Source of the DNA: a virus
IMG/VR virus record: IMGVR_UViG_3300049893_001519
Span: 1-36,961 of that record
Strand: one strand, 5' to 3'
Length of the DNA stretch: 36,961 bases
This document shows positions 12,925-26,313 of the stretch, in pieces. Both the position numbers and the translations under genes were made by a program. The notes beneath the pieces were generated by a model. The model was not told the DNA's origin and did not search any database. It saw only the letters and a list, made by a program, of their open reading frames with translations. How positions within the stretch are numbered: the first letter of the stretch is position 1; each line of letters starts with the position of its first letter.

Positions 12925-13082
12925 CTAGAAAAACAGCCCGGCACCGAACCGTGACGCGATGCCGAGCTGCCGAAATATGCTATGCAACTATAAAACTATT
13001 ATTCATCTGTGGTTTTAGCTATTTGCCGCCATCCCACCCAGGGTATCATATTTAGCATCTAATCATTTATATCGTACTTGAG

Positions 13083-13831: not shown

Positions 13832-14070
13832 TTTGCCCTCCTGCGCTTCGCTGCTTTGAGATGTGTCCTGACCCACTCAGACCTTTTTAAAATTCGCAAG
13901 TTTTTACCCGTGAGCCTATACGCTAATAGCCGCTTCTGCTGCTCTTTCGCCTCTTCTAACAGGAACCCAGCGCACTTTCTTGCTTTTTGCTCGCTCTCCG
14001 CTTCTACGTGCACGAAATAACCCCAAACATACGGCTGGCAGACTGCGTATATGTGCAACCGTTTTTTCAT
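13828..14070 (-). CDS. Small basic protein in the regulator operon
   Basis: The product is 80 residues, strongly basic, especially at the C-terminus (H-L-K-A-A-K-R-R-R-A-K). The N-terminus is a mixed strand segment (L-H-I-Y-A-V-C-Q-P-Y-V-W-G-Y-F-V-H-V) followed by a Glu/Lys/Ala helix. Both ends overlap neighbours by ATGA, so the three leftward genes are translated as a coupled set. A nucleic-acid-binding role is possible from the charge alone; no family is recognised. Confidence 0.6.
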   Translation of the reverse strand: MKKRLHIYAVCQPYVWGYFVHVEAESEQKARKCAGFLLEEAKEQQKRLLAYRLTGKNLRILKRSEWVRTHLKAAKRRRAK

Positions 14071-14756
14071 TTTTCGGCCTTCGCATTATGCTTTACTTCG
14101 TTGTCTACCAACCGTCCCAATTCATCCCAAGATAGCCCCATTTTTTCACGAATCAAACAAAGAATTTCAAATGAGCACCCGCGCGCTTTATCCTCTAAGT
14201 AATAATAAGTCTGCGGAAGAATGCCGAGAAATCGCGCAAACTCATATTTGGTCAAACCCTTCTTAGCGCGCAGTTTCTCAAAAAATCTCATAGTTAATAA
14301 TCGCGCAGCAATAGCCGGTCCCGATCCTTTTGATGCATTCTCACCCCTTGGCAATATCTGCATGTTGTCTAATCTATAGTCGAGCCAACTGTTTATTCGG
14401 TCAATAGATAATCGTGCCATCGTATTACTACAATCTTTCGGTGGCACTGCTTTAAGCATCGTCTCAAATCCTGATTTTAACAGCCATTCCCAAAACTCAA
14501 AGAAACTAAAAGCTAAGTCTGTGCCGTAATTACGCTTCTGGGTAGCCTTAATAGAGGCATAAAGCTTCTCCGCTACCCGCTCCGGCAATAGCGGATTATC
14601 GCATCTCGAACAGATCCAAAAATTCTTTTTTGCCTTTCCCGCCTCCCGGCGTTCGACAATTCCGCTCTTCGTCATCCATTTTCGCGCACGAATGCCGCCC
14701 TTAAACGCCTCTAAGTCCTTCATTTCTTTACATTTAACGCACCGTTGTTTTTCCAT
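14067..14756 (-). CDS. Zinc-ribbon/HNH-like/XRE fusion, candidate repressor-type regulator
   Basis: The product is 229 residues with three visible parts. Cys6, Cys9, Cys49 and Cys52 make a likely zinc ribbon. Residues 117-144 (S-I-D-R-I-N-S-W-L-D-Y-R-L-D-N then G-E-N-A-S-K-G) match the D-R-I-x-x-x-x-x-Y-x-x-x-N segment of phage HNH proteins, but I see no catalytic His pair before it. Residues about 153-215 form an XRE-type helix-turn-helix (R-A-K-K-G-L-T-K-Y-E-F-A-R-F-L-G-I-L). It heads a leftward operon facing the early genes, with paired palindromes in between, the classic place of a phage repressor. It may be a nuclease-derived domain reused for DNA binding. The exact function is unproven. 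Confidence 0.7.
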   Translation of the reverse strand: MEKQRCVKCKEMKDLEAFKGGIRARKWMTKSGIVERREAGKAKKNFWICSRCDNPLLPERVAEKLYASIKATQKRNYGTDLAFSFFEFWEWLLKSGFETMLKAVPPKDCSNTMARLSIDRINSWLDYRLDNMQILPRGENASKGSGPAIAARLLTMRFFEKLRAKKGLTKYEFARFLGILPQTYYYLEDKARGCSFEILCLIREKMGLSWDELGRLVDNEVKHNAKAEK

Positions 14757-14862: not shown

Positions 14863-15102
14863 ATGAAAACCGAACTAGACCAACTAAAGGAAGACCTCCA
14901 AAGCGCATGGGAAAAAATCGAGCTCTACGAATCGGAGCTGCTGTATTCCGGCATCGCGGTGAAATGTGCGCGCTGCGGCGATGTGGTGCTCCAAGATAGA
15001 GCGCATGTTTTTAAGGGTGCGCTCGCACATCATAAGTGCTGCTCTGAGGATTGCGCACACTATATGCAGATCGATGAAGAGAGGAACGGCCCATGGTACT
15101 AG
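14863..15102 (+). CDS. Small zinc-finger-like early protein
   Basis: The product is 79 residues. An N-terminal coiled-coil helix (1-28) precedes a Cys/His-rich part: C35-A-R-C38, then H56-H57-K-C59-C60-S-E-D-C64 and H66. This suggests a single zinc site, probably C35, C38, C60 and C64. It is the first gene of the rightward operon after the repressible promoter, a usual place for small host-takeover or regulatory proteins. The Shine-Dalgarno is weak. No named family is recognised. Confidence 0.6.
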   Translation: MKTELDQLKEDLQSAWEKIELYESELLYSGIAVKCARCGDVVLQDRAHVFKGALAHHKCCSEDCAHYMQIDEERNGPWY

Positions 15103-15164
15103 GTTTTTTGAGTGTGGTTTTTTTAATTAGCGCGAGCATTTATTTGAGCGGGGGTAAGCTATGA
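15093..15164 (+). CDS. 23-residue single-membrane-span microprotein
   Basis: The frame reads M-V-L-G-F-L-S-V-V-F-L-I-S-A-S-I-Y-L-S-G-G-K-L, almost entirely one hydrophobic helix. AGAGGA lies 7 bases before the ATG. The start overlaps the end of the upstream gene, and its TGA overlaps the next ATG as ATGA, the junction type used throughout this operon. That double fit argues it is a real gene although it is too short for normal callers. It probably sits in the inner membrane, role unknown. Confidence 0.6.
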   Translation: MVLGFLSVVFLISASIYLSGGKL

Positions 15165-15349
15165 AACATAAACAGCAATTTAGGGTCGTTTGGTACGAGG
15201 AGCAAAGCCGTTACTTTACCTCAAAGCAAAAGGCATTAACGCACATTCAAAAGCTTTCTAACACCAAGGGCGTGCATGGTATCGCGCTGGAAACGCCCAA
15301 CACCGATCCAAATGTTTCGGGTCATACTATCAGGAAGGTGTTCGTATGA
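15161..15349 (+). CDS. Small early protein of unknown function
   Basis: The product is 62 residues. Strand-like segments (Q-F-R-V-V-W-Y-E) and a Lys-rich helix (S-K-Q-K-A-L-T-H-I-Q-K-L) suggest a small alpha/beta fold. A run of five G at good distance serves as ribosome site, and both ends are ATGA-coupled to the microprotein upstream and the Gp157 gene downstream. No family is recognised. Confidence 0.6.
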   Translation: MKHKQQFRVVWYEEQSRYFTSKQKALTHIQKLSNTKGVHGIALETPNTDPNVSGHTIRKVFV

Positions 15350-15825
15350 AACTCTACGAAATCTCAGAGCGCCTGCGCGCACTAATCGACTCGATCGACA
15401 GCGCCGAGACGCCCGAGGCATATGAAGCGGCGCAAGCTGAAATCGAGCGGACGCTATTAACACGCGATGAGAAACTCGAAGCATGCTGCGCATACGACCG
15501 TGAGCTACGCGCCGAGATCGAGGTCCTAGAAGGGGAGATAGGGCGGCTCAAAGACCTTAAGACCGCAGCCGAGAAAAAGCTTACCGCATGGCGCGAGTAC
15601 ATGGCGCGCTGTGTTGGTGTAGGGGAGAAGTGGAAATCCGCGAAATTCTCGATCGGCTGGCGGAAGAGTAGGGGGGTGATAGTGACAGACGGCACGCAGA
15701 TACCTAGCATTTACTTACGAGAAAAAATCGAGATCGACCGCGAGACGTTAAAGAAAGATTTAGAATGTGGCGCGACGATTCCCGGCGCGCTGCTAGAGGA
15801 ACGCAATAACATTCAAATTAGATGA
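15346..15825 (+). CDS. Siphovirus Gp157 family protein
   Basis: The product is 159 residues. The M-K-L-Y-E-I-S-E-R-L-R-A-L-I-D start, the long Glu/Lys coiled coil (about 25-85) and the C-terminal beta part match the Gp157 family (Pfam Sipho_Gp157). The C-terminal signature includes I-P-S-I-Y-L-R-E-K-I-E-I-D-R-E-T-L-K-K-D-L and I-P-G-A-L-L-E-E. Members were linked to phage resistance in Streptococcus thermophilus and are regularly found next to single-strand annealing proteins. Here the RecT/Bet gene follows at once. The family length agrees. A role in recombination or replication is inferred from context. Confidence 0.85.
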   Translation: MKLYEISERLRALIDSIDSAETPEAYEAAQAEIERTLLTRDEKLEACCAYDRELRAEIEVLEGEIGRLKDLKTAAEKKLTAWREYMARCVGVGEKWKSAKFSIGWRKSRGVIVTDGTQIPSIYLREKIEIDRETLKKDLECGATIPGALLEERNNIQIR

Positions 15826-15833
15826 GGCATAAA

Positions 15834-16616
15834 ATGGAAGAAAAGGGGCTTGTTAATTATACTGATCCGAGCGTGATCGAAACGCTAAAGAAAACCGTTG
15901 CGGCTGGCGCGAGCGCTGAAGAATTTGCGATGTTTACGCAGTTCTGCAAATCAACGGGGCTAAATCCTTTCAAAAAAGAAATTTGGTTTATCAAAACTCA
16001 GAACCGGGTACAGCTCATGACCGGCATCAACGGCTATTGGGCTATCGCAAACAAGCACCCGCAGTTTGATGGCACCGAGCAAGAAATTGCGACAACGCCG
16101 CAAGGCGATATCGTGAGCGCTACATGCAAAGTCTATCGCAAAGACAGGCGCTTTCCTTCGGTGGGCATCGCGCTCATGAAGGAGTATAAAAAAAGTACGC
16201 CTATTTGGTCGCAGATGCCAAGTGTTATGTTGATGAAGTGCGCCGAATCAATCGCGCTGCGGAAAGCCTTCCCGCAGGAACTAAACGGGCTTTACACAGA
16301 AGAAGAGATGCCGCGTGAGTATGCAGCCGCGCCAGCAGTCGCGGAACCGAAAGCGCCTGCGGTTCTGCCCGCTGATGACATTATCGAGCAAGGGCCGTTT
16401 TATTATGATATTTCTACCATGCCGCCCGCCGCGAAGAAAAAAGCGCTTGCTTATCTTGGGAAGCAAGAGGGGATCGAGGAATGGCTTGTCGATAGCGTCT
16501 ATATCTCTGATGTGCCGCTCAAGAAGCTCATTAACTATCGGATCGATAAGCTACCGGCGCGCCCGAACGATCCGCTCGATGAGCAGCTGCAGCAGTTTTT
16601 AGAGCAACCCGTGTAA
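15834..16616 (+). CDS. bet: RecT/Bet family single-strand annealing protein
   Basis: From the ATG at 15834 the product is 260 residues. I prefer this start because GAGG lies 6 bases before it, though an ATG at 15822 overlaps the upstream stop as ATGA. The core resembles lambda Bet and related proteins: F-C-K-S-T-G-L-N-P-F-K-K-E-I-W, M-T-G-I-N-G-Y-W-A-I-A, A-T-C-K-V-Y-R-K-D-R-R and M-L-M-K-C-A-E-S-I-A-L-R-K-A-F-P. It coats single strands and anneals complementary DNA during recombination-dependent replication. The last ~90 residues form a less conserved tail, often used for SSB contacts. No lambda-type exonuclease is obvious; the DUF1064 protein might serve. Confidence 0.9.
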   Translation: MEEKGLVNYTDPSVIETLKKTVAAGASAEEFAMFTQFCKSTGLNPFKKEIWFIKTQNRVQLMTGINGYWAIANKHPQFDGTEQEIATTPQGDIVSATCKVYRKDRRFPSVGIALMKEYKKSTPIWSQMPSVMLMKCAESIALRKAFPQELNGLYTEEEMPREYAAAPAVAEPKAPAVLPADDIIEQGPFYYDISTMPPAAKKKALAYLGKQEGIEEWLVDSVYISDVPLKKLINYRIDKLPARPNDPLDEQLQQFLEQPV

Positions 16617-16640
16617 CGTAACGGATTAATAGGTTCAATC

Positions 16641-16865
16641 ATGAGATATCTGCATAAAACTATGAGCTTTTCTGAGGATGAATTGCTTGACTACCTCAGA
16701 AGAGAAATCAAATTTGGTACTAACGTCTCTGACTTAGCCAAGCAGTTAAATGTATCACGCTCATATATGAGTGAGGTACTTAACAAAAAGCGCGGCATCG
16801 GAGACGCAATTATCGCAGCACTGGGCATGGAAAAATGCTTCAGAAAAATTAAGAAATTGGTTTAA
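16641..16865 (+). CDS. Small XRE-type helix-turn-helix regulator
   Basis: The product is 74 residues. Residues about 25-60 form a helix-turn-helix: V-S-D-L-A-K-Q-L-N-V-S-R-S-Y-M-S-E-V-L-N-K-K-R-G-I-G-D. It would bind DNA as a Cro-like dimer. It lies after the recombination genes and before a terminator-like hairpin, so it could control the early promoter or feed back on the regulator operon. TAGG lies 7 bases before the ATG. Confidence 0.75.
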   Translation: MRYLHKTMSFSEDELLDYLRREIKFGTNVSDLAKQLNVSRSYMSEVLNKKRGIGDAIIAALGMEKCFRKIKKLV

Positions 16866-16866
16866 C

Positions 16867-16887
16867 GGGCACTAATGCCCATTTTTT
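16867..16887 (+). terminator. Intrinsic terminator or attenuator after the HTH gene
   Basis: GGGCA (16867-16871) and TGCCC (16876-16880) form a stem with a 4-base loop, followed by six T (16882-16887). The stem is short, so readthrough is likely. The strong ribosome site of the next gene (AAGGAGG) begins right after the T-run, so this element may tune expression of everything downstream. Confidence 0.6.
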
Positions 16888-16899
16888 AAGGAGGTTGTT

Positions 16900-17085
16900 A
16901 TGGAAACGAATCGAGAGGCGCAGCTAGTGAGAATGAGCGCAGCAGTGATCGCGGCCGTGTTAGTGATGGAGTTTTTAACCGCCTGTAGCTCGGGCGGCTA
17001 TGTACAGCTAGGCTGGATTCCAGTCACGCAAGTTGATGACCACCACGGGCACGACGCGAACAAACCGGAGACTAAGCGATATTAA
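16900..17085 (+). CDS. Small putative lipoprotein
   Basis: The product is 61 residues. A hydrophobic segment (13-28) ends in the lipobox-like L-T-A-C with Cys29, followed by S-S-G-G, typical of lipoprotein junctions. The n-region is unusually long and a Glu (residue 24) interrupts the hydrophobic core, so processing may be poor. The mature part has a His-rich patch (D-D-H-H-G-H-D). The Shine-Dalgarno AAGGAGG is excellent. The function is unknown. Confidence 0.6.
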   Translation: METNREAQLVRMSAAVIAAVLVMEFLTACSSGGYVQLGWIPVTQVDDHHGHDANKPETKRY

Positions 17086-17160
17086 CCCCTTGGAGCGACA
17101 GCGACAGTGAAGCTGCGAGGGATGCCGCGCTTGTACAGGCGGCTTTTTATGGAGAAGGTT

Positions 17161-17517
17161 ATGGAAGAACGACGAAACGCAGGAGTATTCGAGTTAAGAC
17201 CGCACATGCGGCTATTTAGAATTCCCGGCTGGCTGCGCATGGCGACACTACTTACGATTGCGGTAGCCTTTTTAGTCTCAGGCAAATACACCTGCGATTG
17301 GGTGATGTCAGAATGGCAGCGTGTAAAGCAAGCGCAGATTGAGCGGTGGATTGAGGAAGACTTGCAGCGCCGTGAGGTAACGGTGAGCGGCCGAGATGTG
17401 AAGCTAACAGAGGTTCAGAGTAAGGATCTCGTACATGTCGCCGAAAGGCTTGCCCTGCAGCACGAGGCATGCCGCCGCGACATTGAAGAGCTTAAGAATT
17501 ATATCTCTGCGTTCTGA
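17161..17517 (+). CDS. Single-span membrane protein with coiled-coil domain
   Basis: From the ATG at 17161, where GGAG lies 6 bases upstream, the product is 118 residues; ATG 17149 and GTG 17107 are alternatives. A basic N-terminal part (about 1-30) precedes one membrane helix (M-A-T-L-L-T-I-A-V-A-F-L-V-S-G), then a charged, helical domain of about 65 residues with several Arg/Glu pairs. The topology is N-in by the positive-inside rule. No family is recognised; a membrane-anchored scaffold or spanin-like role are both open. Confidence 0.6.
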   Translation: MEERRNAGVFELRPHMRLFRIPGWLRMATLLTIAVAFLVSGKYTCDWVMSEWQRVKQAQIERWIEEDLQRREVTVSGRDVKLTEVQSKDLVHVAERLALQHEACRRDIEELKNYISAF

Positions 17518-17635
17518 TCTGTCGGCACGAGTAGATACGGGGCGGCACGTGTCCCGTGGTTGCGCGTATTTTTTGGAATAATGTTCTTTTTTGGAGTTAG
17601 TATGCATTTTTTATGCTACAACACGCGAGGCTCAT

Positions 17636-18028
17636 ATGAGACACGCATACGCCGGGCTTTCTGGCCCCGACCTTGAAAAAATGGGTATCGTTTTAGACCA
17701 AGGGATCAAATTCCTTGAGTCGCTGCAGACCGCCGCCGCAGCCTTCCGGGCGGGAATACACGAGCTTGAGCGCTATCGAGAGTCGATAGCCAGTGGAACA
17801 ATCAATCTAGACTGGAATGAAGCCTTGAAAAAACTCGCGGAAACAGACCCGGCCGTATACACCGCTTGCCAAGGGGCCGAGCTAGTCAAATTCGACATGG
17901 GACGGCTGGATCTTAGAGCAAGCGGTCAGCAGTACAGCACGCTCTCAATCTTTCGCTCGCGGCTTGAGGCGTTTCTTCGCGAACAATTCGGCGCATCCTT
18001 CAAAGTTCGTATAAAAACACAAAATTAG
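17636..18028 (+). CDS. Early protein of unknown function
   Basis: From the ATG at 17636, 5 bases after GAGG, the product is 130 residues; a TTG 45 bases earlier is weaker. It is mostly helical (E-K-M-G-I-V-L-D-Q-G-I-K-F-L-E-S-L-Q and the L-E-R-Y-R-E-S-I region), with a short beta part near the end. It precedes the replication gene by 174 bases. The 118 bases before it contain only T-rich sequence and a small ATGCAT/ATGC dyad. Confidence 0.55.
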   Translation: MRHAYAGLSGPDLEKMGIVLDQGIKFLESLQTAAAAFRAGIHELERYRESIASGTINLDWNEALKKLAETDPAVYTACQGAELVKFDMGRLDLRASGQQYSTLSIFRSRLEAFLREQFGASFKVRIKTQN

Positions 18029-18031
18029 TTA

Positions 18032-18061
18032 TTGCAGAAAAGTAGGCAAATGGTTTATAAG
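18032..18061 (+). promoter_or_regulatory. Candidate promoter for the replication gene
   Basis: TTGCAG (18032-18037) and TATAAG (18056-18061) lie 18 bases apart, directly after the stop of the preceding gene. This would give a leader of about 135 bases before the replication gene, containing the GGGGCTTA hairpin. The -35 is only a partial match. Confidence 0.4.
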
Positions 18062-18141
18062 GTTTTTACGTCATTTTAAGTTCATCAGTTTTCTAGCGAC
18101 TGCGAACCTAAAATTGATCTGAAACCGACAGCCTGGCGCAT

Positions 18142-18212
18142 AAAAAAAGGGGCTTATTTCTAAGCCCCAAAGTGCGCAGGCTCGCTGAATGAGTGACCAT
18201 TCATGAGTGCAC
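18142..18212 (-). ncRNA. Candidate antisense RNA over the replication gene's start
   Basis: Leftward, TTGTAA (18243-18248) and TATTAT (18219-18224) lie 18 bases apart and would start RNA near 18212. About 45-70 bases on is a model intrinsic terminator: GGGGCTTA and TAAGCCCC (18149-18168) pair perfectly around a GAAA tetraloop in the RNA, followed by seven U (18142-18148). No leftward gene exists here for this terminator to serve. The ~70-nt transcript would be complementary to the start codon (18203) and leader of the replication gene. A complementary hairpin pair (TGAATG/CATTCA, 18186-18203) lies within it. This resembles lambda OOP in size and place, and plasmid CopA in target. Confidence 0.55.
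18189..18206 (+). CDS. Five-codon leader ORF coupled to the replication gene
   Basis: ATG-AGT-GAC-CAT-TCA-TGA encodes M-S-D-H-S, and its stop overlaps the replication gene's start (TCATGA). A modest GCAGG lies 8 bases upstream of it, while the replication gene itself has no clear Shine-Dalgarno. Ribosomes finishing this ORF could re-initiate on the gene, as the tap leader does for repA in plasmid R1. It is very short and so could be accidental. Confidence 0.35.
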   Translation: MSDHS

Positions 18213-19078
18213 AAGAAGATAATACACCAAAAAACACACCGCTTACAACTGTTTTACTGCCCGCAAGCCTTTTTTCGTGGCCTGAAGTTCAGGCAGTTGT
18301 AACGGAACATAAAGCACTTGCATACGCCCTTCTTTCTCCTTTACTGCTTTTAATCGGTGAGCGAGGCGGAGAGGCTTCAGCGCTAACCATTAGCGCACTT
18401 GGGAAGGTTCTCGGAATCCCGAACGTTTTAGAAATCGTCGACGCATTTATCGAGACCGGGATTCTCTATAGACACAACGATCAAATCCGCTCTCGGATTA
18501 TCGATGACAATATCCGGCAGATCCTAGCTAAACGGAATGACTGGGCTGAACAAAAACGGGTAGTTAGGTCAAATGTCCATACGGACTCCGTGAGTATCTG
18601 TGCGGAGTCCAACGGACTCCGCGAGATTCTACCTGTGTCTAGAACCAGAACCAGAACCAGAACCAGAAATATAGAACCAGAACCAGAACCAGAACTAGAA
18701 CCAGAACTAGAACCAAAACCAGAACCAGAACCAAAACCAGAACCGGAAGGGGGGGGATGCAATGCGCAGGAAACCTTACCGCACGCCAAAATACCAAAAC
18801 CGCCACCGGGTTTCCGCGAAGGCTGCAAGCCTTGGGGACACTACCAACACGTATGGCTTACCGACGCTGAACGCGCCGAATTAATTGAGAAATTTGGGCT
18901 ATCCTCATACCAGAGTTGCGTTATCGGTCTCGATACCGGCATCGAAAATAAACAAAAAAAATACTTAGGCTACGTGAACCATTGCGCATGCATACGCAAC
19001 TGGTGCGTGAAAGATCAGAAGCAATTTAACAGCAGCGCTGAGCTGACACGGATTCGAGCGGATATCATGCGGAGATAG
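18203..19078 (+). CDS. Replisome-organizer-like replication initiation protein
   Basis: The product is 291 residues. The N-terminal ~115 residues look like a winged-helix replication domain (L-F-S-W-P-E-V-Q then A-L-T-I-S-A-L-G-K-V-L-G-I-P). A hinge of R-T and then E-P repeats (about 147-187) follows. The C-terminal ~85 residues have the pattern of phage helicase-loader/replisome-organizer tails (W-x-H-Y-Q-H-V-W-L-T-D-A-E-R-A-E-L-I-E-K-F-G, then K-Y-L-G-Y-V-N-H-C-A-C-I-R-N-W). It probably binds the origin and recruits the host helicase, since the phage encodes none. The hinge DNA carries the candidate origin repeats. Start-region control by antisense RNA is likely (separate entries). Confidence 0.75.
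   Translation: MSAQEDNTPKNTPLTTVLLPASLFSWPEVQAVVTEHKALAYALLSPLLLLIGERGGEASALTISALGKVLGIPNVLEIVDAFIETGILYRHNDQIRSRIIDDNIRQILAKRNDWAEQKRVVRSNVHTDSVSICAESNGLREILPVSRTRTRTRTRNIEPEPEPELEPELEPKPEPEPKPEPEGGGCNAQETLPHAKIPKPPPGFREGCKPWGHYQHVWLTDAERAELIEKFGLSSYQSCVIGLDTGIENKQKKYLGYVNHCACIRNWCVKDQKQFNSSAELTRIRADIMRR
18581..18622. repeat. GGACTCCG boxes and 9-bp hairpin inside the replication gene
   Basis: GCGGAGTCC (18602-18610) and GGACTCCGC (18614-18622) are exact reverse complements with a 3-base loop. A third copy, ACGGACTCCG, stands at 18581-18590. Directly repeated and inverted boxes next to a hexanucleotide array, inside an initiator gene, are typical of phage origins. The array starts 19 bases further on. 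Confidence 0.6.
18641..18746. repeat. AGAACC hexanucleotide array, candidate origin iterons
   Basis: About 17 copies of a 6-base unit (AGAACC and one-base variants) fill this stretch, broken near 18669-18673 by an ATAT insertion. The same unit is read in two frames: before the break as Arg-Thr, after it as Glu-Pro (with some Glu-Leu and Lys-Pro). The array falls in the hinge between the two domains of the initiator, where lambda O and many lactococcal and staphylococcal phages keep their origin. It is followed by a run of eight G (18749-18756) that keeps the downstream frame. Confidence 0.6.
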
Positions 19079-19084
19079 TTAAAA

Positions 19085-19372
19085 ATGGAAGATCGAAAAA
19101 GACCAACGAAGGATGAAAGAGAGCGATTTTTAAAGGGAGTGCGCCCTGACTTAGTGAATATCGCGGAAGCACAGGAAATGCCCGCTCACCTTCAGCCGCG
19201 CGTCGTTAAGGCGCAAGATCTCGATGGTGATGTTTTCTTAATCGCAAATCCGCTTCATTGGGCGTACTACGAGGACGTTTCGGGCGAGCGATTTTACAAG
19301 GTTCCAAGATCGAAGATGATCGCGCCATACAGCCGCAGTGCCGCAGTTCAAATTTATTCAGAATTAATTTAA
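19085..19372 (+). CDS. Early protein of unknown function
   Basis: The product is 95 residues, charged at the N-terminus (M-E-D-R-K-R-P-T-K-D-E-R-E-R-F), then a beta-rich half with several aromatic residues (W-A-Y-Y-E-D-V-S-G-E-R-F-Y-K-V-P). It follows the replication gene by 6 bases and precedes the SSB-tailed protein, so it may belong to the replication set. No family is recognised. Confidence 0.55.
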   Translation: MEDRKRPTKDERERFLKGVRPDLVNIAEAQEMPAHLQPRVVKAQDLDGDVFLIANPLHWAYYEDVSGERFYKVPRSKMIAPYSRSAAVQIYSELI

Positions 19373-19382
19373 TGAGGATTTT

Positions 19383-19673
19383 ATGGGCGCGCCTATAAAG
19401 AAATTTTGGGAGAAGGGAAATGAAATCGCAATTTGGAAAGACGAAAAATACGGCTATACGGCAAGTTATCGAAAAACATACAAAGATAAAAATACCGGCG
19501 AATACAAAACAAGCGCTAAATTATTTAGATCCGATTTAGAGAATCTACGCACTTGTATTAATAAGGCGCTCGCGTGGTGGGAATCTGAACCGAAAGACGA
19601 TGCGGAAAGAAAATCAGCGCCGGAGCCGAAGCACGAGCCACAGGCGTTTGATGACTCGGACATTCCATTTTAA
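19383..19673 (+). CDS. Single-stranded-DNA-binding-like protein with an SSB-type tail
   Basis: The product is 96 residues. Residues 1-67 form a small beta-sheet plus helix: W-E-K-G-N-E-I-A-I-W-K-D-E, T-A-S-Y-R-K-T-Y-K-D-K-N-T-G-E-Y-K-T-S, then L-E-N-L-R-T-C-I-N-K-A-L. This recalls small phage and archaeal proteins with PC4/YdbC-like DNA-binding folds. A disordered Pro/Glu/Lys linker leads to the terminus D-D-S-D-I-P-F. That acidic tail ending in I-P-F is the signature by which bacterial SSB recruits partner enzymes. GAGG lies 5 bases before the ATG. It likely takes the role of SSB in phage replication or recombination. Confidence 0.65.
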   Translation: MGAPIKKFWEKGNEIAIWKDEKYGYTASYRKTYKDKNTGEYKTSAKLFRSDLENLRTCINKALAWWESEPKDDAERKSAPEPKHEPQAFDDSDIPF

Positions 19674-19678
19674 CCATC

Positions 19679-19987
19679 ATGAACTTAATTGACTGCCTCC
19701 ACGATGTGCCAGCGGCGACGAAAGCCGCGTTTCTCGCATATCACAAGTCTAATCCCGAAGTGTGGCGCGAGTTCGAGCGCTTTGCATTGGAAGCTGCGAA
19801 CAAGCGCAAACACTATGGAGCGAAGTCGATCATGGAGCGCGTCAGATGGGAGAGCGAGATCGCGTACGGCAAAGATTTTAAAGCGAATAATAATTTTACA
19901 GCATATTACAGTCGCATATTCGCCGCGAAATATCCTTTATTCGATCTATTTGAATTCCGAAAGCTAAAAGGACTTAAGGCAGCATGA
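19679..19987 (+). CDS. Conserved phage protein of unknown function
   Basis: The product is 102 residues. The layout (F-L-A-Y-H-K-S-N-P-E-V-W-R-E-F-E-R-F-A-L-E-A, then R-K-H-Y-G-A-K-S-I-M-E-R-V-R-W-E, then N-N-N-F-T-A-Y-Y-S-R-I-F) matches a small protein found in many tailed phages beside replication and nuclease genes. To my knowledge it has no established function. Helical content and surface Arg/Lys suggest DNA or protein contact. It is ATGA-coupled to the next gene. Confidence 0.7.
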   Translation: MNLIDCLHDVPAATKAAFLAYHKSNPEVWREFERFALEAANKRKHYGAKSIMERVRWESEIAYGKDFKANNNFTAYYSRIFAAKYPLFDLFEFRKLKGLKAA

Positions 19988-20214
19988 CACGCGAAGCGTT
20001 AATAGAAATCATCGCCGACTGCCGCGCTCGCTTACTGCGCGGGTATTCGGGCGCACCGATGCGGTATTTGCCTGAGCATGAGGATCTCTGGGCGCAGGAC
20101 ATTAGAGATTTTATAGATTTTTGTTTGCGGTGTTTACCTTTAGCGGCAGAGGGCTATGTAAATGGACGAGCTGGATCAGATTCTCTTGGAAATGATCGAG
20201 GAAGAGAAGCGTAG
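19984..20214 (+). CDS. Small early protein of unknown function
   Basis: The product is 76 residues, mostly helical (M-T-R-E-A-L-I-E-I-I-A-D-C-R-A-R-L-L), with three Cys. Its last 17 codons overlap the start of the membrane microprotein at 20162 in another frame. The start is coupled to the gene before it by ATGA. No family is recognised. Confidence 0.5.
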   Translation: MTREALIEIIADCRARLLRGYSGAPMRYLPEHEDLWAQDIRDFIDFCLRCLPLAAEGYVNGRAGSDSLGNDRGREA

Positions 20215-20296
20215 TGTGCAAATGATAGGTTTTTGCTTTGTGCTGTTATCACTTTTAATTTTGGGGGTGACTATATGGATCTTTCTTCTGCAGTAA
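20162..20296 (+). CDS. 44-residue single-span membrane protein, overlapping both neighbours
   Basis: The frame begins M-D-E-L-D-Q-I-L-L-E-M-I-E-E-E-K-R and ends in one membrane helix (M-I-G-F-C-F-V-L-L-S-L-L-I-L-G-V-T-I-W). GAGGG lies 8 bases before the ATG. It overlaps the gene upstream by 53 bases and the next by 22, each in a different frame. The acidic cytosolic-type head plus a membrane tail is a plausible bitopic membrane protein. The function is unknown. Confidence 0.6.
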   Translation: MDELDQILLEMIEEEKRSVQMIGFCFVLLSLLILGVTIWIFLLQ

Positions 20297-20472
20297 TTTT
20301 CGGCGCGCTGATTGTGTCAGCGCCATCAGCAGTAGCGGTTATTGTCTCTATTCTCGCAGCGCGCCGTGAGCGCATAAAAGCAAAGTACTTAAAGGAACGG
20401 CTTGATAGCGCGATCCTCAGTATGCGGAGCGAGTCGGACATGCAGCGCGAATTTAACGAGAAGGTACAATGA
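20275..20472 (+). CDS. Small membrane protein with charged tail
   Basis: From the ATG at 20275, with GGGGGTGA 4 bases upstream, the product is 65 residues. Residues about 5-27 form a membrane helix (A-V-I-F-G-A-L-I-V-S-A-P-S-A-V-A-V-I-V-S-I-L). A basic, then mixed-charge helix follows (R-R-E-R-I-K-A-K-Y-L-K-E-R-L). The tail should stay in the cytoplasm. The start lies inside the end of the preceding membrane ORF, suggesting the two are made together. Confidence 0.6.
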   Translation: MDLSSAVIFGALIVSAPSAVAVIVSILAARRERIKAKYLKERLDSAILSMRSESDMQREFNEKVQ

Positions 20473-20711
20473 TGAAACATAACTTTGAACCACATAACGC
20501 CGGGCGCAGGATTCTGCCGCTAGAATCATCATTAGAGCTAATCAAAAAAGAGCAGTTTTGTGAGGGCTTCGCGCTTGCATTTACCATGTGCGAACAGCCG
20601 CATATGTTAATGGATGCGAAACTCGAAGCTGCACTGAAAGAGCAACCGAGCGACCGCGCCAAGCGCTTAGCTGAAGTTGCGTATCGAATCGCGCAGGGGC
20701 GGCTGAAATGA
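20469..20711 (+). CDS. Small early protein of unknown function
   Basis: The product is 80 residues, with GAGAAGG a few bases before tandem ATG codons that overlap the upstream stop. It is helical, with a C-terminal basic segment (S-D-R-A-K-R-L-A-E-V-A-Y-R-I-A-Q-G-R-L-K). There are no Cys pairs or membrane segments. It is ATGA-coupled at both ends. Confidence 0.55.
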   Translation: MMKHNFEPHNAGRRILPLESSLELIKKEQFCEGFALAFTMCEQPHMLMDAKLEAALKEQPSDRAKRLAEVAYRIAQGRLK

Positions 20712-20986
20712 GCGTCAAAAAACGACTGGCATTAAAACGCGTGACAATCTCTCGCGGGTCAGACGCCGGATTATACTTAGATGCCGATGGGAATTTTTTT
20801 ATCGCCGACCCCGGGCAAACTGTTTTCCATGCCGAACGCTCCATGATTACCGATAGCCTTGAAAGTTTTTGCTCCGCAGCCATTGCGCTGAAAATCAACT
20901 GTAAATATCTGCTCAATATACTTCTTATTTATTCACACGATCGAGAATTTTGCTTTCCTATCATGCGCAATCGTTTACGAATGTGA
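20708..20986 (+). CDS. Small early protein of unknown function
   Basis: The product is 92 residues. The first half is basic and then beta-like (L-K-R-V-T-I-S-R-G-S-D-A-G-L-Y-L-D-A-D-G-N-F-F-I-A-D). The second half is moderately hydrophobic (L-L-N-I-L-L-I-Y-S) but too polar for a sure membrane helix. The stop overlaps the next start as TGATG. No family is recognised. Confidence 0.5.
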   Translation: MSVKKRLALKRVTISRGSDAGLYLDADGNFFIADPGQTVFHAERSMITDSLESFCSAAIALKINCKYLLNILLIYSHDREFCFPIMRNRLRM

Positions 20987-21567
20987 TGACTAGCTTCGTA
21001 CAAGGCTTCTGGTGCGGCTTCGTCTCGGTGCTCTTGATGTGCATCGGGCTTGCGCTGTTTGCGTTTGCGCAGGTGACGTTTGTGCACGCACGAGGGCACG
21101 ACGGTTTTACTCGTGCGGGGGCTAAAAAGCTAGTCGCGGACATTGAGGCTAGATTCGATACTTTCGGTATGCCGCTCGGGCCGACAAAGCTAATTAGCGT
21201 TCATAATCCGTTTAGACGCTATCAAAATCTATCGCAGCGTCAGCCGCTTGCATTTCATTGGCGCGCATGGTTTGCGAGACGCCACATAAGAAGCGCCGGC
21301 ATGGCAATCGTCCCCGCGCTCGATGGCTATATGGCGGGCTTTTCATTTCGCGGCTGTCGCGGCAAAGGCTATGCAGCTGTGCATCCTAAAAACGATTTAG
21401 GGCAGGATCGATATGAGCATTCGATTATAGCAATTATGCATGAATTGGGTCGGGCGCGGTTTGGACTACGGACCGACGACTCGGAGCCTAACATCATGAT
21501 GAGCGCGCCACTTCCGCTGGTGGGGGTGGAGGAGCTTTTGTTTTTGAAGGGAGGGGGGTGCAGATGA
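20986..21567 (+). CDS. Membrane-anchored metzincin-like protein with altered zinc site
   Basis: From the ATG at 20986 the product is 193 residues. One N-terminal membrane helix (about 8-30) anchors an external domain. Residues 152-162 read H-E-L-G-R-A-R-F-G-L-R, followed by N-I-M-M at 169-172. This has the spacing of a metzincin zinc site (H-E-x-x-H-x-x-G-x-x-H plus Met-turn), but the second and third His are Arg. Upstream sequence (G-Y-A-A-V near 129, Y-E-H-S-I-I-A-I-M) also resembles strands and the active-site helix of such peptidases. If the match is real the protein is probably a non-catalytic relative. The family call is tentative. Confidence 0.5.
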   Translation: MTSFVQGFWCGFVSVLLMCIGLALFAFAQVTFVHARGHDGFTRAGAKKLVADIEARFDTFGMPLGPTKLISVHNPFRRYQNLSQRQPLAFHWRAWFARRHIRSAGMAIVPALDGYMAGFSFRGCRGKGYAAVHPKNDLGQDRYEHSIIAIMHELGRARFGLRTDDSEPNIMMSAPLPLVGVEELLFLKGGGCR

Positions 21568-21797
21568 CACACAAAGAGCTGTTCGAGGCGCTGCTGGCGG
21601 GGAAGAAGGTTACGGGCATTGACTGGATTAAATACTATATAATGCTAAACGATTGTGGAAGTCTCGTAGATGCTGATGGGGTACGGCTGAAAGGCATTTA
21701 TGTAGAAGATGTTAGCGACTTTAAGATCTACCAAGAGCCGGAAAAGTGTTTTGAGTGGATGATCAAGAGGGGGAAGCGTGAAGAAAGTAAAAAGTAG
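21564..21797 (+). CDS. Small early protein with a Tad2/DUF2829-like N-terminus
   Basis: From the ATG at 21564, with GGAGGGGGG just upstream, the product is 77 residues. The opening (F-E-A-L-L-A-G-K-K-V-T-G-I-D-W then Y-Y-I-M-L-N-D) and the D-F-K-I-Y-Q-E-P segment follow the pattern of short SH3-like phage proteins that include DUF2829. Members of DUF2829 such as Tad2 sequester Thoeris signalling molecules. The match is only at pattern level and many phage proteins share this shape, so anti-defence activity is a guess. It is ATGA-coupled to the metzincin-like gene. Confidence 0.4.
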   Translation: MTHKELFEALLAGKKVTGIDWIKYYIMLNDCGSLVDADGVRLKGIYVEDVSDFKIYQEPEKCFEWMIKRGKREESKK

Positions 21798-21846
21798 CTT
21801 TGTTGGAATCTACGATCTGGGATTTTCAAAAAGATAGGATTATAAA

Positions 21847-23727
21847 ATGAAAATATTGATCGCGCTTTTTCTTTTCGCAGCGACAGCATTTGCGGCGGAT
21901 CGTCCGATTTTTCCAGGCGCGGAGGGGTACGGGAGCAGAACCGTCGGGGGGAGCGGTCGTCACTTGTCCCCGCCAAATACTAAAATATTCGTAGTTAACA
22001 ATCTAGAGAATAATGGTCCCGGCTCCCTCCGTGAATGCGCCGAGGCTTCGATGCCGAGGACGTGCGTTTTTGAAGTGGGCGGTGTTATTTGGAGTCAACT
22101 ACCGATTAAAATTACGAAACCCTATTTAAGTATTTGGGGCGAAACAGCACCAGAACCGGGCATAATCATCAGAGGTAGCGGCATATCTATAGAGGCTTCT
22201 CATATCCTTTTGCGGCATTTGAAAATAAGGCCGGGCGACGATCCGCGTTCCGTTTGTTGTAAGGCGGGAACATGTACGCCGGATGTCCAACAGAGCTGCA
22301 CATCTGATCCGGGGTCGAGAGACGGTACAAACATATGGGCAACAAACAATGGAATCGAAAATGTGGTTGAGGATCACTTAAGTATTGAATGGGCGCTGGA
22401 TGAAGGCTTGTCAATTGCCCCTGATTCGTATGAGGTGCGTAATGTTACAATATCTAATTCTATTATTGCTTCTGGCCTTGACTTGTCTATACATCCGGAA
22501 GCTTCATCATCAACTGATCCAGGTCACTCAAAAGGTACGCTTATCAACGGCAGAAAAAGTGTGCAGGGCCTTTCTTATATTAGAAATGTTCTTGCTCATA
22601 ATGCTGATCGTAATATTCGTATCAGCGTTCCCGTTAGAATGGAGTACATAAATAATGTTGTTTATAATTGGGCGCGCGGTAAAGGCGTAGGCCGCACAAT
22701 TGAGGCGCATAACAGTTCAAGTAATACGCAGTTTATTGATCTCATCGGCAACACTTATATTCCTGGCCCTGATACGTTCTGTCCTGAAACAATGAACAGG
22801 CCGGACCTTTGCAATCCGCTACCTAACCGCACTGATACACCGGAAGCTCGAAAGAAAATGCATTACATTATCCGGCCGGGTAATGGCGGTACGTCTGCGA
22901 ATTCGCCCAATAGCCGTTACTTTTTTGCGAACAACTTGGGGCCGACCTCCGCTGGCGATGATTGGGATATCGCGGATAACGGATTCTTTAAATCTAGTGC
23001 ACGTGCCGAGCTTTTATATCCGCAGAACCGCGCCAGCGCCCCCGTTGCGGAATCGGGCTTAGTGATCTTTGCAGGCGATCCCTTAAAGACTTCCGGCGCG
23101 CGCACCTTCGAGTCGCGTGATTCCGTTGATGCCAAAATTATAGAAGATATCAAGACTGGCACCGGCAGAATAATTAACTGCGTGGCTGATGATGGCACTT
23201 CGCGTTGTGTTCTTAACGCCGGGGGGTGGCCGATCTCCGGAGTCTCGCATAGACCCCTTAATATTCCCGCAAACCCGATGGGGGATGACGACGGAGACGG
23301 TTATACAAACCTAGAAAATTGGGCGTTCACTTTCTCCGAAGGTGGCTCAACGCCTACGCCAACGATCCCAACTACTACCACCACTAGTACTGTAACAACG
23401 ACAACCTTTAGCTGTGATCTAGCTGACCTCTGCAAAGAGACTTGCCGTAACTGCTACGTCACTACCACAACGCGCACAACGACGACGCGGACGACGACAA
23501 CAAAAACTAGTACTACGAAGACATCGACCACGAGCACCAGCACTGTAACAACCACAACGCTTCCAGTGAGTGAATGTCAAACAGCATTAAATACTTGCGC
23601 GGGTAAGTGCGAAGATTGTTTGCGACTTACGAAAGGTTTGATCTCTGCTTATCCCGGCTCGCAGTTGTGGCCGTGTGAGCAGCAGCTTCAGGTATGCAAA
23701 ATGAAACTTTGTGAAAATTGTAGGTGA
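21847..23727 (+). CDS. Secreted pectate-lyase-like parallel beta-helix protein
   Basis: The product is 626 residues. Residues 1-16 are a Sec signal peptide (cleavage after A-F-A). Residues about 20-440 resemble polysaccharide lyase family 1: F-P-G-A-E-G-Y-G, N-N-G-P-G-S-L-R-E, the I-W-G-E-T-A-P rung, L-L-R-H-L-K-I-R-P-G-D, and V-V-E-D-H-L-S-I-E-W. The A-H-N-A-D-R-N-I-R-I segment has R255 as a candidate catalytic Arg. A calcium-loop-like D-D-D-G-D-G-Y-T-N-L-E follows (480-490). Thr-rich linkers (about 502-520 and 539-572) then alternate with three small Cys modules (523-536, 578-591, 610-625). It likely cleaves acidic polysaccharide outside the cell. Its place in the early operon, with its own signal peptide, sets it apart from virion depolymerases. 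Confidence 0.8.
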   Translation: MKILIALFLFAATAFAADRPIFPGAEGYGSRTVGGSGRHLSPPNTKIFVVNNLENNGPGSLRECAEASMPRTCVFEVGGVIWSQLPIKITKPYLSIWGETAPEPGIIIRGSGISIEASHILLRHLKIRPGDDPRSVCCKAGTCTPDVQQSCTSDPGSRDGTNIWATNNGIENVVEDHLSIEWALDEGLSIAPDSYEVRNVTISNSIIASGLDLSIHPEASSSTDPGHSKGTLINGRKSVQGLSYIRNVLAHNADRNIRISVPVRMEYINNVVYNWARGKGVGRTIEAHNSSSNTQFIDLIGNTYIPGPDTFCPETMNRPDLCNPLPNRTDTPEARKKMHYIIRPGNGGTSANSPNSRYFFANNLGPTSAGDDWDIADNGFFKSSARAELLYPQNRASAPVAESGLVIFAGDPLKTSGARTFESRDSVDAKIIEDIKTGTGRIINCVADDGTSRCVLNAGGWPISGVSHRPLNIPANPMGDDDGDGYTNLENWAFTFSEGGSTPTPTIPTTTTTSTVTTTTFSCDLADLCKETCRNCYVTTTTRTTTTRTTTTKTSTTKTSTTSTSTVTTTTLPVSECQTALNTCAGKCEDCLRLTKGLISAYPGSQLWPCEQQLQVCKMKLCENCR

Positions 23728-23805
23728 AAGAGGGCAAAGTAACGGAAATTGTGCAATGTGTTGTGGTAAAATCAGTTTAGGGAGAGTAGGCAGGAAGGAA
23801 TTTAT

Positions 23806-24041
23806 ACCGATGGTGCTGAAAGTCGGAGTCTAACAAATAAATTGTGCCTTGACCTTCAATACGAGTACGCACCATCGGTCACGGTTTGCGCGAATGAATA
23901 GCGGAATGCCAACGGCTTGGTAACCCGGTTCGCTATTTAAGAGCGCTAAGGAGGTTGTTGCAGCATGGACATATCCTCATATGTTCCGCGCTCGACATAA
24001 TAGGTTGTTGCCACCTGCTTCAACCTCCCGCCTTAGCGTTT
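23806..24041 (+). ncRNA. Candidate structured RNA or 5' leader with three stem systems
   Basis: System 1: ACCGATGGTGC (23806-23816) pairs perfectly with GCACCATCGGT (23869-23879). System 2: AATAGCG (23897-23903) pairs with CGCTATT (23931-23937) and encloses TGCCAA-CGGC-TTGGTA (23907-23922). System 3: CGCTAAGG-AGGTTG (23944-23957) pairs with CAACCT (24021-24026) and CCTTAGCG (24031-24038). Inside it, GCAG/CTGC and a perfect ACATAT-CCTC-ATATGT hairpin (23969-23984) continue the stem. System 3 buries AAGGAGG, the ribosome site of an 11-codon ORF. No known riboswitch, intron, tRNA or tmRNA signature is recognised. It may be an independent RNA or a leader controlling the gene at 24054. Confidence 0.55.
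23965..24000 (+). CDS. 11-codon leader ORF with sequestered ribosome site
   Basis: ATG to TAA encodes M-D-I-S-S-Y-V-P-R-S-T. AAGGAGG (23948-23954) lies 10 bases before the ATG, a slightly long spacing. The same AAGGAGGTTGTT sequence serves the lipoprotein gene at 16900. The ribosome site is paired in stem system 3 and the ORF spans the internal hairpin, so translation would reshape the RNA. It could be a regulatory leader peptide or an accidental frame. Confidence 0.35.
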   Translation: MDISSYVPRST

Positions 24042-24053
24042 TGAGAGGATGAG

Positions 24054-24287
24054 ATGGTAGCCCACGATCCACGAAACAATCGCCCCGCATTCCGCGATGC
24101 CTCTATACAAGAGAAAGAGTACACGCAGATGCAGCTAAAGACAGCGTTTAAGATTGCGTTCAAATTTGGCCGACTCACCGGAGATGGCGGTCCGTGGGAA
24201 GATGCGCTCTTGAAACAGCACAATAGCGCAGCGCTTGATGCGGAGGCTGAGAGAGCGTTTACATACATTACGAATGGGGGGAAATGA
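24054..24287 (+). CDS. Small early protein of unknown function
   Basis: The product is 77 residues, soluble and helical (M-Q-L-K-T-A-F-K-I-A-F-K-F-G-R-L). GAGAGGA lies 5 bases before the ATG. It is the first gene after the structured gap and is ATGA-coupled to the next, so the RNA element would control at least this pair. No family is recognised. Confidence 0.55.
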   Translation: MVAHDPRNNRPAFRDASIQEKEYTQMQLKTAFKIAFKFGRLTGDGGPWEDALLKQHNSAALDAEAERAFTYITNGGK

Positions 24288-25261
24288 TATACGCATTTGA
24301 TTATTTAGGCGGCGCGATGTTTGGCCGCGAGATCCTAAAGGCTCATCCTTCAAATTATGGTGCTGGCTTCTTCGCGGATACTTTCGGTGACTGCTTCCCA
24401 GTAGCAAAACGCTTAGCAGCATCGAGAAAATGCCCGCTAATTCGGATTCATGGGCCGTGGACAAATCATCTCTATAGCCCGAGCCGTCACGATGCCGCGA
24501 TCTTCAAAGCGTTTAACCGTACAAAGAAATTAGCGGCACTCTTTCCTTCGGTGCGCTTTCAATTCTCGCCCGTCTGCGAGTCGAGTGCTCGCGGCACCAA
24601 TTGGCAGCAGCTATTTAAGCGCTTAATACGAGACGCGGGGCCGGTTGAGATTATTTGCTCTATCTGGCGCGGTGAAGCGGTAAGTGGCGTAAAATTAGAG
24701 GTGCATGGCAAGGAGCGCGCACCCGGCAAGCCGTATCAATATAGCTACGACGGCACAAGCGCCGTGGATTCCGATATTGAAAGCGATAAGCGTAAGCACT
24801 CACGCGCTGATGTGTTTTTTTTCTGGCATCCATCCTTTAATCTTAAATATAAGACTGAGCTATCAGGCGATGAAGCGGCGCACATAAAGCGGAACGATAC
24901 GGCAGCACCTACGCGCCGAAACTGTAAGCCGACGCCCGAGCTAATAAAGAGCCTTGCGGCGCTTGCGGATGATAAGGGCAACACCTCGCTTAAAGCTCGC
25001 AATCTCTACAAGTCACATAGTGATAGGCATCAAACGCCACCCGAGAAGCGCGCTTATAAGCCTGTGCTCATCTCACCTATCAAAGCCGAGTGCGCCACAC
25101 TCGGGAATACTCGAAGCGAAAAGCGCGAGCCGTATAAAGACGGGCGCTATCGCTATTATTTTTCTAAGTACGGCTATCAACTCGGGCGCGGCGCGCTGCG
25201 TGTCGGAAGCACCGAGGTCGGATTTGTAAACGGGGCGTTTAGAGAGGGCGATTTTCGGTGA
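24284..25261 (+). CDS. Possible TIM-barrel-like enzyme of unknown function
   Basis: The product is 325 residues. The first ~170 residues alternate strand and helix with buried hydrophobic strands (P-L-I-R-I-H-G-P-W, V-R-F-Q-F-S-P-V-C-E, V-E-I-I-C-S-I-W) and acidic residues at strand ends, as in glycosidase-type TIM barrels. The C-terminal third is basic and contains K-P-T-P-E-L-I-K-S-L-A-A-L and K-S-H-S-D-R-H. It ends with a beta-rich Y-R-Y-Y-F-S-K-Y-G-Y-Q-L segment resembling a binding domain. I recall similar unnamed phage proteins but no function. A cell-wall or polysaccharide hydrolase is possible; no signal peptide is seen. Confidence 0.55.
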   Translation: MIYAFDYLGGAMFGREILKAHPSNYGAGFFADTFGDCFPVAKRLAASRKCPLIRIHGPWTNHLYSPSRHDAAIFKAFNRTKKLAALFPSVRFQFSPVCESSARGTNWQQLFKRLIRDAGPVEIICSIWRGEAVSGVKLEVHGKERAPGKPYQYSYDGTSAVDSDIESDKRKHSRADVFFFWHPSFNLKYKTELSGDEAAHIKRNDTAAPTRRNCKPTPELIKSLAALADDKGNTSLKARNLYKSHSDRHQTPPEKRAYKPVLISPIKAECATLGNTRSEKREPYKDGRYRYYFSKYGYQLGRGALRVGSTEVGFVNGAFREGDFR

Positions 25262-25575
25262 GCTTCTCCAAGTACCGCGCAAAGCGCACCGAGATAGACG
25301 GTAAAGTGTTCCATTCGGGGAAAGAAGCCCGCCGCTATGCTGAGCTTAAAACGCTTGAACGCGCCGGATATATTTCCGGCTTAGAGCTGCAGCCGAAGCT
25401 ACCTATCGAAATCTGCGGCGAGCATCTCTGCAACTACATCGCAGATTTTAAGTACTGGGAAGATGGAACGCTTGTCATCGAAGACGTGAAAGGCGTTCGC
25501 ACTCCGACGTTCAATCTCAAATGGAAGGCTGTACAAATTCAGTATAGAGGGAAAGCAGAATTTAGGATCACATGA
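25258..25575 (+). CDS. DUF1064 family, endonuclease-like protein
   Basis: The product is 105 residues from a GTG that overlaps the upstream stop (GTGA). It carries the family pattern: S-K-Y-R-A-K-R-T-E-I-D-G-K-V-F-H-S-G-K-E-A-R-R-Y-A-E-L, then L-E-L-Q-P-K, then Y-I-A-D-F-K-Y-W-E-D-G and V-I-E-D-V-K-G. The E..D-F..E-D-V-K-G set is the arrangement of a PD-(D/E)XK nuclease core, and DUF1064 has been linked to phage Holliday-junction or single-strand nucleases. With no other recombination nuclease visible, it is the best partner for the RecT/Bet protein. Confidence 0.85.
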   Translation: MSFSKYRAKRTEIDGKVFHSGKEARRYAELKTLERAGYISGLELQPKLPIEICGEHLCNYIADFKYWEDGTLVIEDVKGVRTPTFNLKWKAVQIQYRGKAEFRIT

Positions 25576-26129
25576 CAGCAAAAGGGCAGCGCCGTTACGG
25601 TTATCTTGCGCCTCGGCCGAATAAGCATTTGGTCGGTAAGGTTCGCTGCTTAGAAGATATCTGCAGCGTTATTGAATGGAATGAAAAAAATGACCGGTGG
25701 GAACCGGAGCAGAATTTGTTAGCGCATGTACTATGGCGCGCAATTAAAGATATCACAGAACCTTATACCGAGCGCTGGAAAATACGAGAACGCGATGCGG
25801 AAATCTGGTTTCCAATTCTTGAGCGCTGGAAGGCGTCAGGATTAAGTAAAAAGCGCTTCTGCCTTGAAAACAAAATATGCGACAAATCATTCTACCTATG
25901 GGCCTACCGTCTAGGCATGGAGGGTAAGCGCAAATTCACATCCTCGCCGCTCTATAATGACTGGGTGTCAGATGCCTACGAGTGGATCTTTAGTGAATCG
26001 GAGGAACCCTGGTCGATTCGCTGGTTGTGCGAGCAGCTTAGTGAATCGCCGGATTCGCTACTTCGTAAAATCCGCGAAGAGGTACCCGACGATATCCTAA
26101 GCGATGAGCCTAGGCTCGATATCACCTAG
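25572..26129 (+). CDS. HTH protein with IS66 TnpA-like segment, possible late regulator
   Basis: The product is 185 residues. Residues about 75-115 (W-F-P-I-L-E-R-W-K-A-S-G-L-S-K-K-R-F-C then S-F-Y-L-W-A-Y-R-L-G) follow the helix-turn-helix found in IS66 accessory proteins. The C-terminal part (D-A-Y-E-W-I-F-S-E-S, then S-I-R-W-L-C-E-Q-L-S-E-S-P-D-S-L-L-R-K-I-R) matches a short motif common in phage proteins at the end of early operons. It is the last early gene, converging on the lysis cassette, the position where late activators or antiterminators are often encoded. No transposon ends are visible. Regulation of late genes is inference. Confidence 0.55.
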   Translation: MTAKGQRRYGYLAPRPNKHLVGKVRCLEDICSVIEWNEKNDRWEPEQNLLAHVLWRAIKDITEPYTERWKIRERDAEIWFPILERWKASGLSKKRFCLENKICDKSFYLWAYRLGMEGKRKFTSSPLYNDWVSDAYEWIFSESEEPWSIRWLCEQLSESPDSLLRKIREEVPDDILSDEPRLDIT

Positions 26130-26313
26130 AGCCTAGCGGCTGGCTCCTAGCAAGCACATAAGTGCCGAGCGCTTGCGAGCCGAGATCCACGCCTAACGGT
26201 ATCGGCAGATCCGGCAGTGGCACCCCGAACAGCGCAAGCACCGTGCGCGCTATGGGCCATAAAATAAGGAAAACCCCGATCCAGCTCTTCACCTTGTCTG
26301 CATCATTTCCCAT
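26122..26313 (-). CDS. Small membrane protein, candidate holin
   Basis: From the ATG at 26313, 6 bases after AGGAGG, the product is 63 residues; an upstream frame extension is rejected on this basis. Residues about 9-24 form a membrane helix (W-I-G-V-F-L-I-L-W-P-I-A-R-T-V-L), then a Pro-rich turn (G-V-P-L-P-D-L-P-I-P-L). A weaker hydrophobic segment follows (G-V-D-L-G-S-Q-A-L-G-T-Y-V-L) and then a basic end. Size, topology and place at the end of the late operon fit a small holin. Its last 8 bases overlap the end of the convergent early gene. Confidence 0.6.
   Translation of the reverse strand: MGNDADKVKSWIGVFLILWPIARTVLALFGVPLPDLPIPLGVDLGSQALGTYVLARSQPLGSR
26126..26150. terminator. Stem-loop between convergent early and late operons
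   Basis: CTAGAGCC (26126-26133) pairs with GGCTC-C-TAG (26142-26150) around an 8-base loop with one bulged C. A perfect 12-bp palindrome, GAGCCTAGGCTC, lies just before it (26106-26117). The element covers both stop codons of the converging genes. There is no long U-run, so it may act as a weak or bidirectional terminator, or as a barrier to read-through. Confidence 0.5.

Follow-up and report, generated by a model that had tools for sequence, protein, structure and literature searches.

A nested hairpin in front of a phage replication initiator gene: a probable OOP-like control element with a possible role on both DNA strands

In a phage genome of 36,961 bp, the intergenic leader of a putative replication initiator gene contains a strong hairpin. 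Because its design recurs, in other letters, before the unlike replication genes of two further phages, it probably represents a true control element of the phage lambda OOP kind. Our preferred reading, to which we give slightly less than an even chance, is that the hairpin would act on both DNA strands, as an OOP-like terminator unit on one and as a fold switch in the leader on the other. The features of the locus are as follows.

18130–18141, + strand: left arm of the outer stem, AGCCTGGCGCAT (outer stem p = 0.0075 to 0.012 against shuffled flanks)
18142–18212, − strand: predicted 71-nt leftward RNA, inferred from promoter and terminator
18149–18168, − strand: inner hairpin, a leftward intrinsic terminator stem-loop of 8 bp with a GAAA loop, the best terminator of the genome
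18172–18182, + strand: right arm of the outer stem, GTGCGCAGGCT, ending 20 nt before the ATG
18186–18203, + strand: TGAATG/CATTCA hairpin over the start codon, read from the sequence
18189–18206, + strand: five-codon leader ORF (MSDHS*) with its stop overlapping the initiator ATG, judged to be background
18203–19078, + strand: replication initiator or replisome-organizer-like gene (weak profile matches and gene position)
18207–18212, + strand: GTGCAC, codons 2–4 of the initiator, alternative partner of the right arm (pairing p = 0.019)
18219–18248, − strand: candidate leftward promoter TTGTAA-18-TATTAT (position weight matrix score about 11, genome rank about 10)
18581–18748, + strand: candidate origin inside the initiator gene (repeats, compare the lambda iterons inside O)

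The DNA analyzed here (the window) is the whole of IMG/VR virus record IMGVR_UViG_3300049893_001519. A 230-bp terminal direct repeat (1–230 and 36732–36961; 99.1% identical, two mismatches) indicates that the record probably represents a complete genome, opened at an arbitrary position. Early genes, including RecT at 15822, run rightward from 14863 to 26129, and TerL and portal are among the leftward genes. No close relatives of the window were found, and portal matches among named phages were below 30% identity. The upstream neighbor of the initiator gene ends at 18028, to the left of the predicted RNA, whose end at 18142 is 114 nt away, and had no family match in our searches; an Rfam search of the window returned no family at the gathering score. 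Several other loci were recorded along the genome. The gene at 14067–14756, in the position of a repressor, combines an N-terminal endonuclease VII/HNH-like part (phrog_1035, E = 2e-7) with a C-terminal helix-turn-helix (HTH_3, E = 1.5e-4), and its relatives match the HTH part alone. The gene at 21847–23727, in the rightward early operon, matches the pectate-lyase-like phrog_27797 (E = 5.8e-27) and has a signal-peptide-like start, Thr-rich linkers and a Cys-rich end; its product may be an exported host-conversion enzyme. Beside TerL, a leftward terminator-like hairpin, GCAGCTCGG...CCGGGCTGT-TTTTCTA (12933–12970), precedes the start of the leftward gene 12924–12421 by 9 nt, and is possibly a late-operon attenuator needing antitermination.

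Profile matches and gene position were concordant in weakly suggesting that the gene at 18203–19078 encodes an initiator. It matched phrog_13246, a replisome organizer, at E = 4.8e-4, and its C-terminal part gave a hit at E = 0.01 to a phage replisome organizer in Monoglobus. The gene adjoins homologues of the genes at 19085 and 19679, and a related phage, G001, carries a Lin1244-type initiator at that place. When the window initiator was compared by profile with the G001-type family, the probability was 8% and the E-value 0.004. No plasmid-type or RepA-family initiator match was obtained, the replisome-organizer signals being weak. Searches of phages, viral contigs and genome contigs gave no homologue of the gene, the one weak hit, to its C-terminal part, being on a plasmid. 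Within the gene, three iteron-like GGACTCCG repeats (two direct, one inverted) at 18581–18625 are followed by an (AGAACC)n array of about 18 copies at 18641–18748, so that the candidate origin would be placed like the lambda ori inside O.

Read leftward, the inner hairpin is GGGGCTTA-GAAA-TAAGCCCC-TTTTTTT (18168–18142, with U7 at 18148–18142). It is the sole stem of at least 8 bp followed by T7 in the window genome, and none of 20 whole-genome shuffles contained an equivalent. It opposes the direction of the early operon, and there is no leftward gene whose transcription it could end. An earlier reading of the window, made without database searches (the sequence-only reading), had pointed to a leftward terminator with an 8-bp stem, a GAAA loop and U7 at a place where no leftward gene exists, and both observations hold: no terminator in the genome is stronger, and the rightward early operon contains no plausible leftward gene. 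We consider it very likely that this terminator is functional. A search of viral contigs for its exact sequence returned no match.

On the sense RNA a second stem encloses the terminator hairpin, giving a nested hairpin; this outer stem was absent from the sequence-only reading. The order of elements is AGCCTGGCGCAT-A7-(inner stem)-AAA-GTGCGCAGGCT; together the two stems have about 19–22 bp, with an A-rich internal loop between them. This 53-nt hairpin has a folding z of −4.6, no shuffle folded equally well, and it ranked second of 14,764 overlapping 55-nt segments taken in 5-nt steps on both strands. The nested leader hairpin is probably functional. Its right arm has an alternative partner, because its GTGCGC can pair instead with the GTGCAC at 18207–18212. 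When the left arm was blocked in folding, the unpaired probability of the window ATG dropped from about 0.3 to about 0.04. That the leader is bistable is a hypothesis, tested post hoc on three phages.

The candidate leftward promoter falls within codons 6–15, approximately, of the initiator, with a predicted transcription start site near 18212. It scored about 11 with a sigma-70 matrix, versus 9.0 for lambda pO, and a local shuffle covering the 190 nt to the right of the terminator site gave p = 0.03. Genome-wide, promoter matches occurred at chance frequency, both for the consensus (4 found versus 4.1 expected) and for matrix scores of at least 11 (9 found versus 9.7 expected). A promoter and a terminator no more than 250 nt apart on the same strand were found at this site alone, and 100 shuffles gave no such pair; the pairing thresholds were chosen after the site was seen. 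The leftward promoter sequence proposed earlier is present at 18248–18219 and its pairing with the terminator is unique, but consensus matches overall are at chance and the excess is modest; we regard a real promoter here as plausible. The predicted 71-nt RNA is strongly structured (folding z −4.96) and complementary to the initiator start codon, the leader and the inner hairpin. On the sequence evidence, we lean slightly toward the existence of an RNA of about this length.

The resemblance to lambda pO-oop-tO rests on the candidate leftward promoter, the predicted RNA of about 71 nt and the upstream terminator, which match the lambda layout: a short leftward unit, predicted in the window, with its promoter at the initiator start and its terminator just upstream, in a rightward early operon. 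The OOP-like part of the sequence-only reading, with a candidate convergent promoter at the initiator start, a predicted RNA of about 71 nt and an intrinsic terminator 5′ of the gene, stands as a layout. The 5′ end of OOP is at 38,675 (PMC5869508), i.e. pO starts 11 nt upstream of gene O, whose start is at 38,686, and OOP is a self-terminating RNA of 77 nt (PMC3349717). In the window the predicted start site is instead 9 nt inside the gene, so that the predicted RNA, unlike OOP, spans the initiator start codon. Moreover, no cII-like gene overlaps the predicted RNA, whereas OOP is antisense to the 3′ end of cII and acts on cII mRNA (PMC3985674), and the outer stem that wraps the window terminator has no counterpart at lambda tO (p = 0.88). 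A DNA search of phages gave no match, neither to the 33-bp oop/pO sequence shared by lambdoid phages nor through any other similarity to lambda.

Relatives of the locus were sought by scanning 18 RecT relatives and 78 relatives of the downstream gene at 19679. G001 (L019/L025, 36,665 bp) and G002 (L026, 36,044 bp), two phages recovered from a single metagenome sample and with portal and TerL distantly related to those of the window, carry a leftward terminator directly before the initiator, in each case the top one of the record. The distance from terminator to start codon is 34 nt in G001, 28 nt in G002 and 34 nt in the window. The initiators differ, being Lin1244-type in G001 and, by eye, DUF1376-like in G002; both matched a primosomal-protein phrog. 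An outer stem with different letters wraps the terminator in both phages (p = 0.0025 in G001 and 0.05 in G002, compared with 0.0075 in the window), and the nested hairpins have z values of −5.2, −4.6 and −4.6, respectively. When the A-run hairpins within each of the three records were compared, the nested one either was alone in having an outer stem or ranked first; in the pooled set of 166, the window and G001 tied for the highest outer-stem score (24), and G002 was in the top ten. The outer right arm ends 20 nt before the ATG in the window, 16 nt in G001 and 15 nt in G002, and pairing of this arm with the first codons gave p = 0.019, 0.08 and 0.006; in G002 the left arm TCACTGG recurs immediately after the ATG. 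The outer-stem and alternative-pairing tests were devised after the pattern was seen, on these three phages. In neither G001 nor G002 did folding with the left arm blocked give a clear-cut result or point cleanly to a state in which the start is open, and a MAFFT alignment of the three leaders was sequence-driven and misaligned the stems. At the matching place, no leftward promoter was detectable in G001 (p = 0.74) or G002 (p = 0.37), indicating that the common part is the hairpin with its terminator and not the antisense RNA. The antisense RNA is likely to be confined to the window phage, as an addition there.

The element is missing from the majority of family members that have a RecT or portal relative, and 21 other DUF1376-like loci showed nothing comparable. 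A general rule of antisense terminators at phage initiators was considered and found unsupported (none of the 21 DUF1376-like loci, and one clear case in seven Lin1244-like). No outer stem was found around the leftward terminators of L009, L012, L013 and L017, the last of which sits at the end of leftward ORFs. In L012 (2037–2146), a leftward terminator and a promoter TTGATT-17-TACAGT (score 10.2, p = 0.03) with a predicted RNA of about 82 nt occupy an extended non-coding interval in the early region. In L013 (5380–5468), a tRNA-like 3′ end, GGTTCAAATCCTACCGCTGGTGCCA, is directly followed by a strong leftward terminator in the rightward early region. In Vibrio phage douglas 12A4 (HQ316580), a Lin1244-type initiator is preceded at 136 nt by a leftward terminator, GCCTCTG..CAGAGGC-T8; a strong leftward promoter, TTGAAA-17-TAATAT, would give an RNA of about 50 nt. 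Compared with the window, this phage has no outer stem and its promoter is upstream of the gene, not inside. In the corresponding record (L150:1888–2017) the leftward A-run hairpins are at 1896–1916 (strong) and 1991–2017 (weaker), the promoter is at 1973–1945 and the initiator is at 2052. The annotation of this phage does not describe the promoter-terminator unit as such.

Several other explanations were weighed against the two-strand reading. Early genes of T7 are separated by RNase III sites, which share with the window hairpin two stems, an asymmetric internal loop and about 20 bp in all. The hairpin may be a structure of the sense strand only, serving mRNA processing (e.g. as an RNase III site) or translation control, with its terminator appearance a by-product of the A-rich loop. 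This explanation accords with the recurrence of the two-stem geometry in three phages with different letters, whereas the leftward promoter does not recur, and with the A's on both sides of the loop. However, the terminator U-tract on the opposite strand sets the hairpin apart from the T7 sites, the A-tract is pure and long on the terminator-giving side alone (A7, A6 and A5 in the three phages), and by stem and T-tract the hairpin is the top intrinsic terminator in all three records; we consider a sense-strand role alone unlikely, though not negligible. Convergent firing from the leftward promoter alone might matter, tuning rightward transcription into the gene and its origin, with RNA pairing and the outer stem irrelevant. 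In lambda, pO is required for full replication and reduces the rightward transcription that enters the origin region; rightward transcription rises and replication falls when pO is inactive, and pO was argued to work by transcription interference, the OOP RNA itself not destabilizing O-P mRNA (PMC3985674). The promoter-terminator unit, unique in its genome, suits plain interference, but the promoter is undetectable in G001 and G002, both of which retain the hairpin, and the outer stem is left unexplained, which makes this account improbable.

A terminator without a local promoter, as in G001 and G002, would be accounted for if it were an insulator that halts stray leftward transcription, such as late read-through past 26324, and so spares the upstream early genes an antisense run. 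In the window, the leftward late operon converges on the early operon with no evident terminator at 26129–26324, and none that was significant for the late operon was found at 26.1–26.3 kb. Insulation is nevertheless improbable as well, since the hairpin is 8 kb from the convergence point yet stands 28–34 nt before the initiator start in three phages, and the outer stem is not needed for it. Antisense copy-number control of the R1 type, with a translated leader resembling tap, was part of the sequence-only reading. As in R1 copA/copT-tap-repA, the predicted antisense RNA would cover the initiator leader and start, and a short ORF (ATG AGT GAC CAT TCA TGA) overlaps the ATG at 18203 as ATGA. Although this ORF is present as described, short upstream ORFs of 20 codons or fewer with a stop overlapping the start precede 11 of 39 window genes, four of them being of five codons or fewer, and G001 and G002 have no counterpart; we thus rejected it as a tap analogue. 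The start-codon hairpin named with it does exist (TGAATG at 18186–18191, CATTCA at 18198–18203), but is weak by itself beside the strongly folding 71-nt leftward RNA. With an initiator that is not plasmid-type and belongs to another family, and a 71-nt RNA whose terminator is inside the leader, the R1 layout was not borne out, and control of this type is very improbable. A similarly slight probability is given to a DNA-level role, in which the hairpin would be a single-strand initiation or primosome site at the replication origin: a strong hairpin adjoins a replication gene in three phages, but its T-tract is typical of a terminator and the candidate iterons are 400 bp off, inside the gene.

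In the two-strand reading, the inner stem would, on the leftward strand, terminate the RNA of about 71 nt from the convergent promoter, as lambda tO ends OOP from pO. If the promoter fires, it would hold down initiator expression in two ways: rightward early transcription heading to the gene and its internal origin would run into leftward transcription, and the leftward RNA would cover the initiator start codon. On the rightward mRNA, the inner and outer stems would form the nested hairpin; pairing of the right arm with the left arm would leave the start freer, and its pairing with the first initiator codons would close it. Leader folding would in this way set the level of initiator translation. 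The sequences themselves show the terminator, the nested stem, the alternative pairing and their recurrence in two other phages; we infer the firing of the promoter, the leftward RNA, the relevance of either conformer in the cell and the direction of these effects. Counting against this reading are the undetectable promoter in G001 and G002, the absence of the element from most relatives and, in lambda, an OOP RNA that does not itself destabilize O-P mRNA (PMC3985674).

RNA-based replication in prophages is already known from mycobacterial prophages (PMC7157519). A wider proposition, which we hold to be doubtful, is that these phages share a previously undescribed two-strand regulatory hairpin, kept by structure and not by sequence across the initiators of phages of about 36–37 kb, that is at once a leftward terminator and a bistable translational gate, with an antisense RNA added in one phage. 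The reason for the convergent promoter and terminator beside the lambda initiator gene is still disputed, and in these compact leaders the roles of promoter, terminator and leader fold would be separable by mutation. The occurrence of the lambda layout together with a nested leader hairpin, at different initiators and without detectable similarity to the lambda replication region, suggests convergent or shared replication control.
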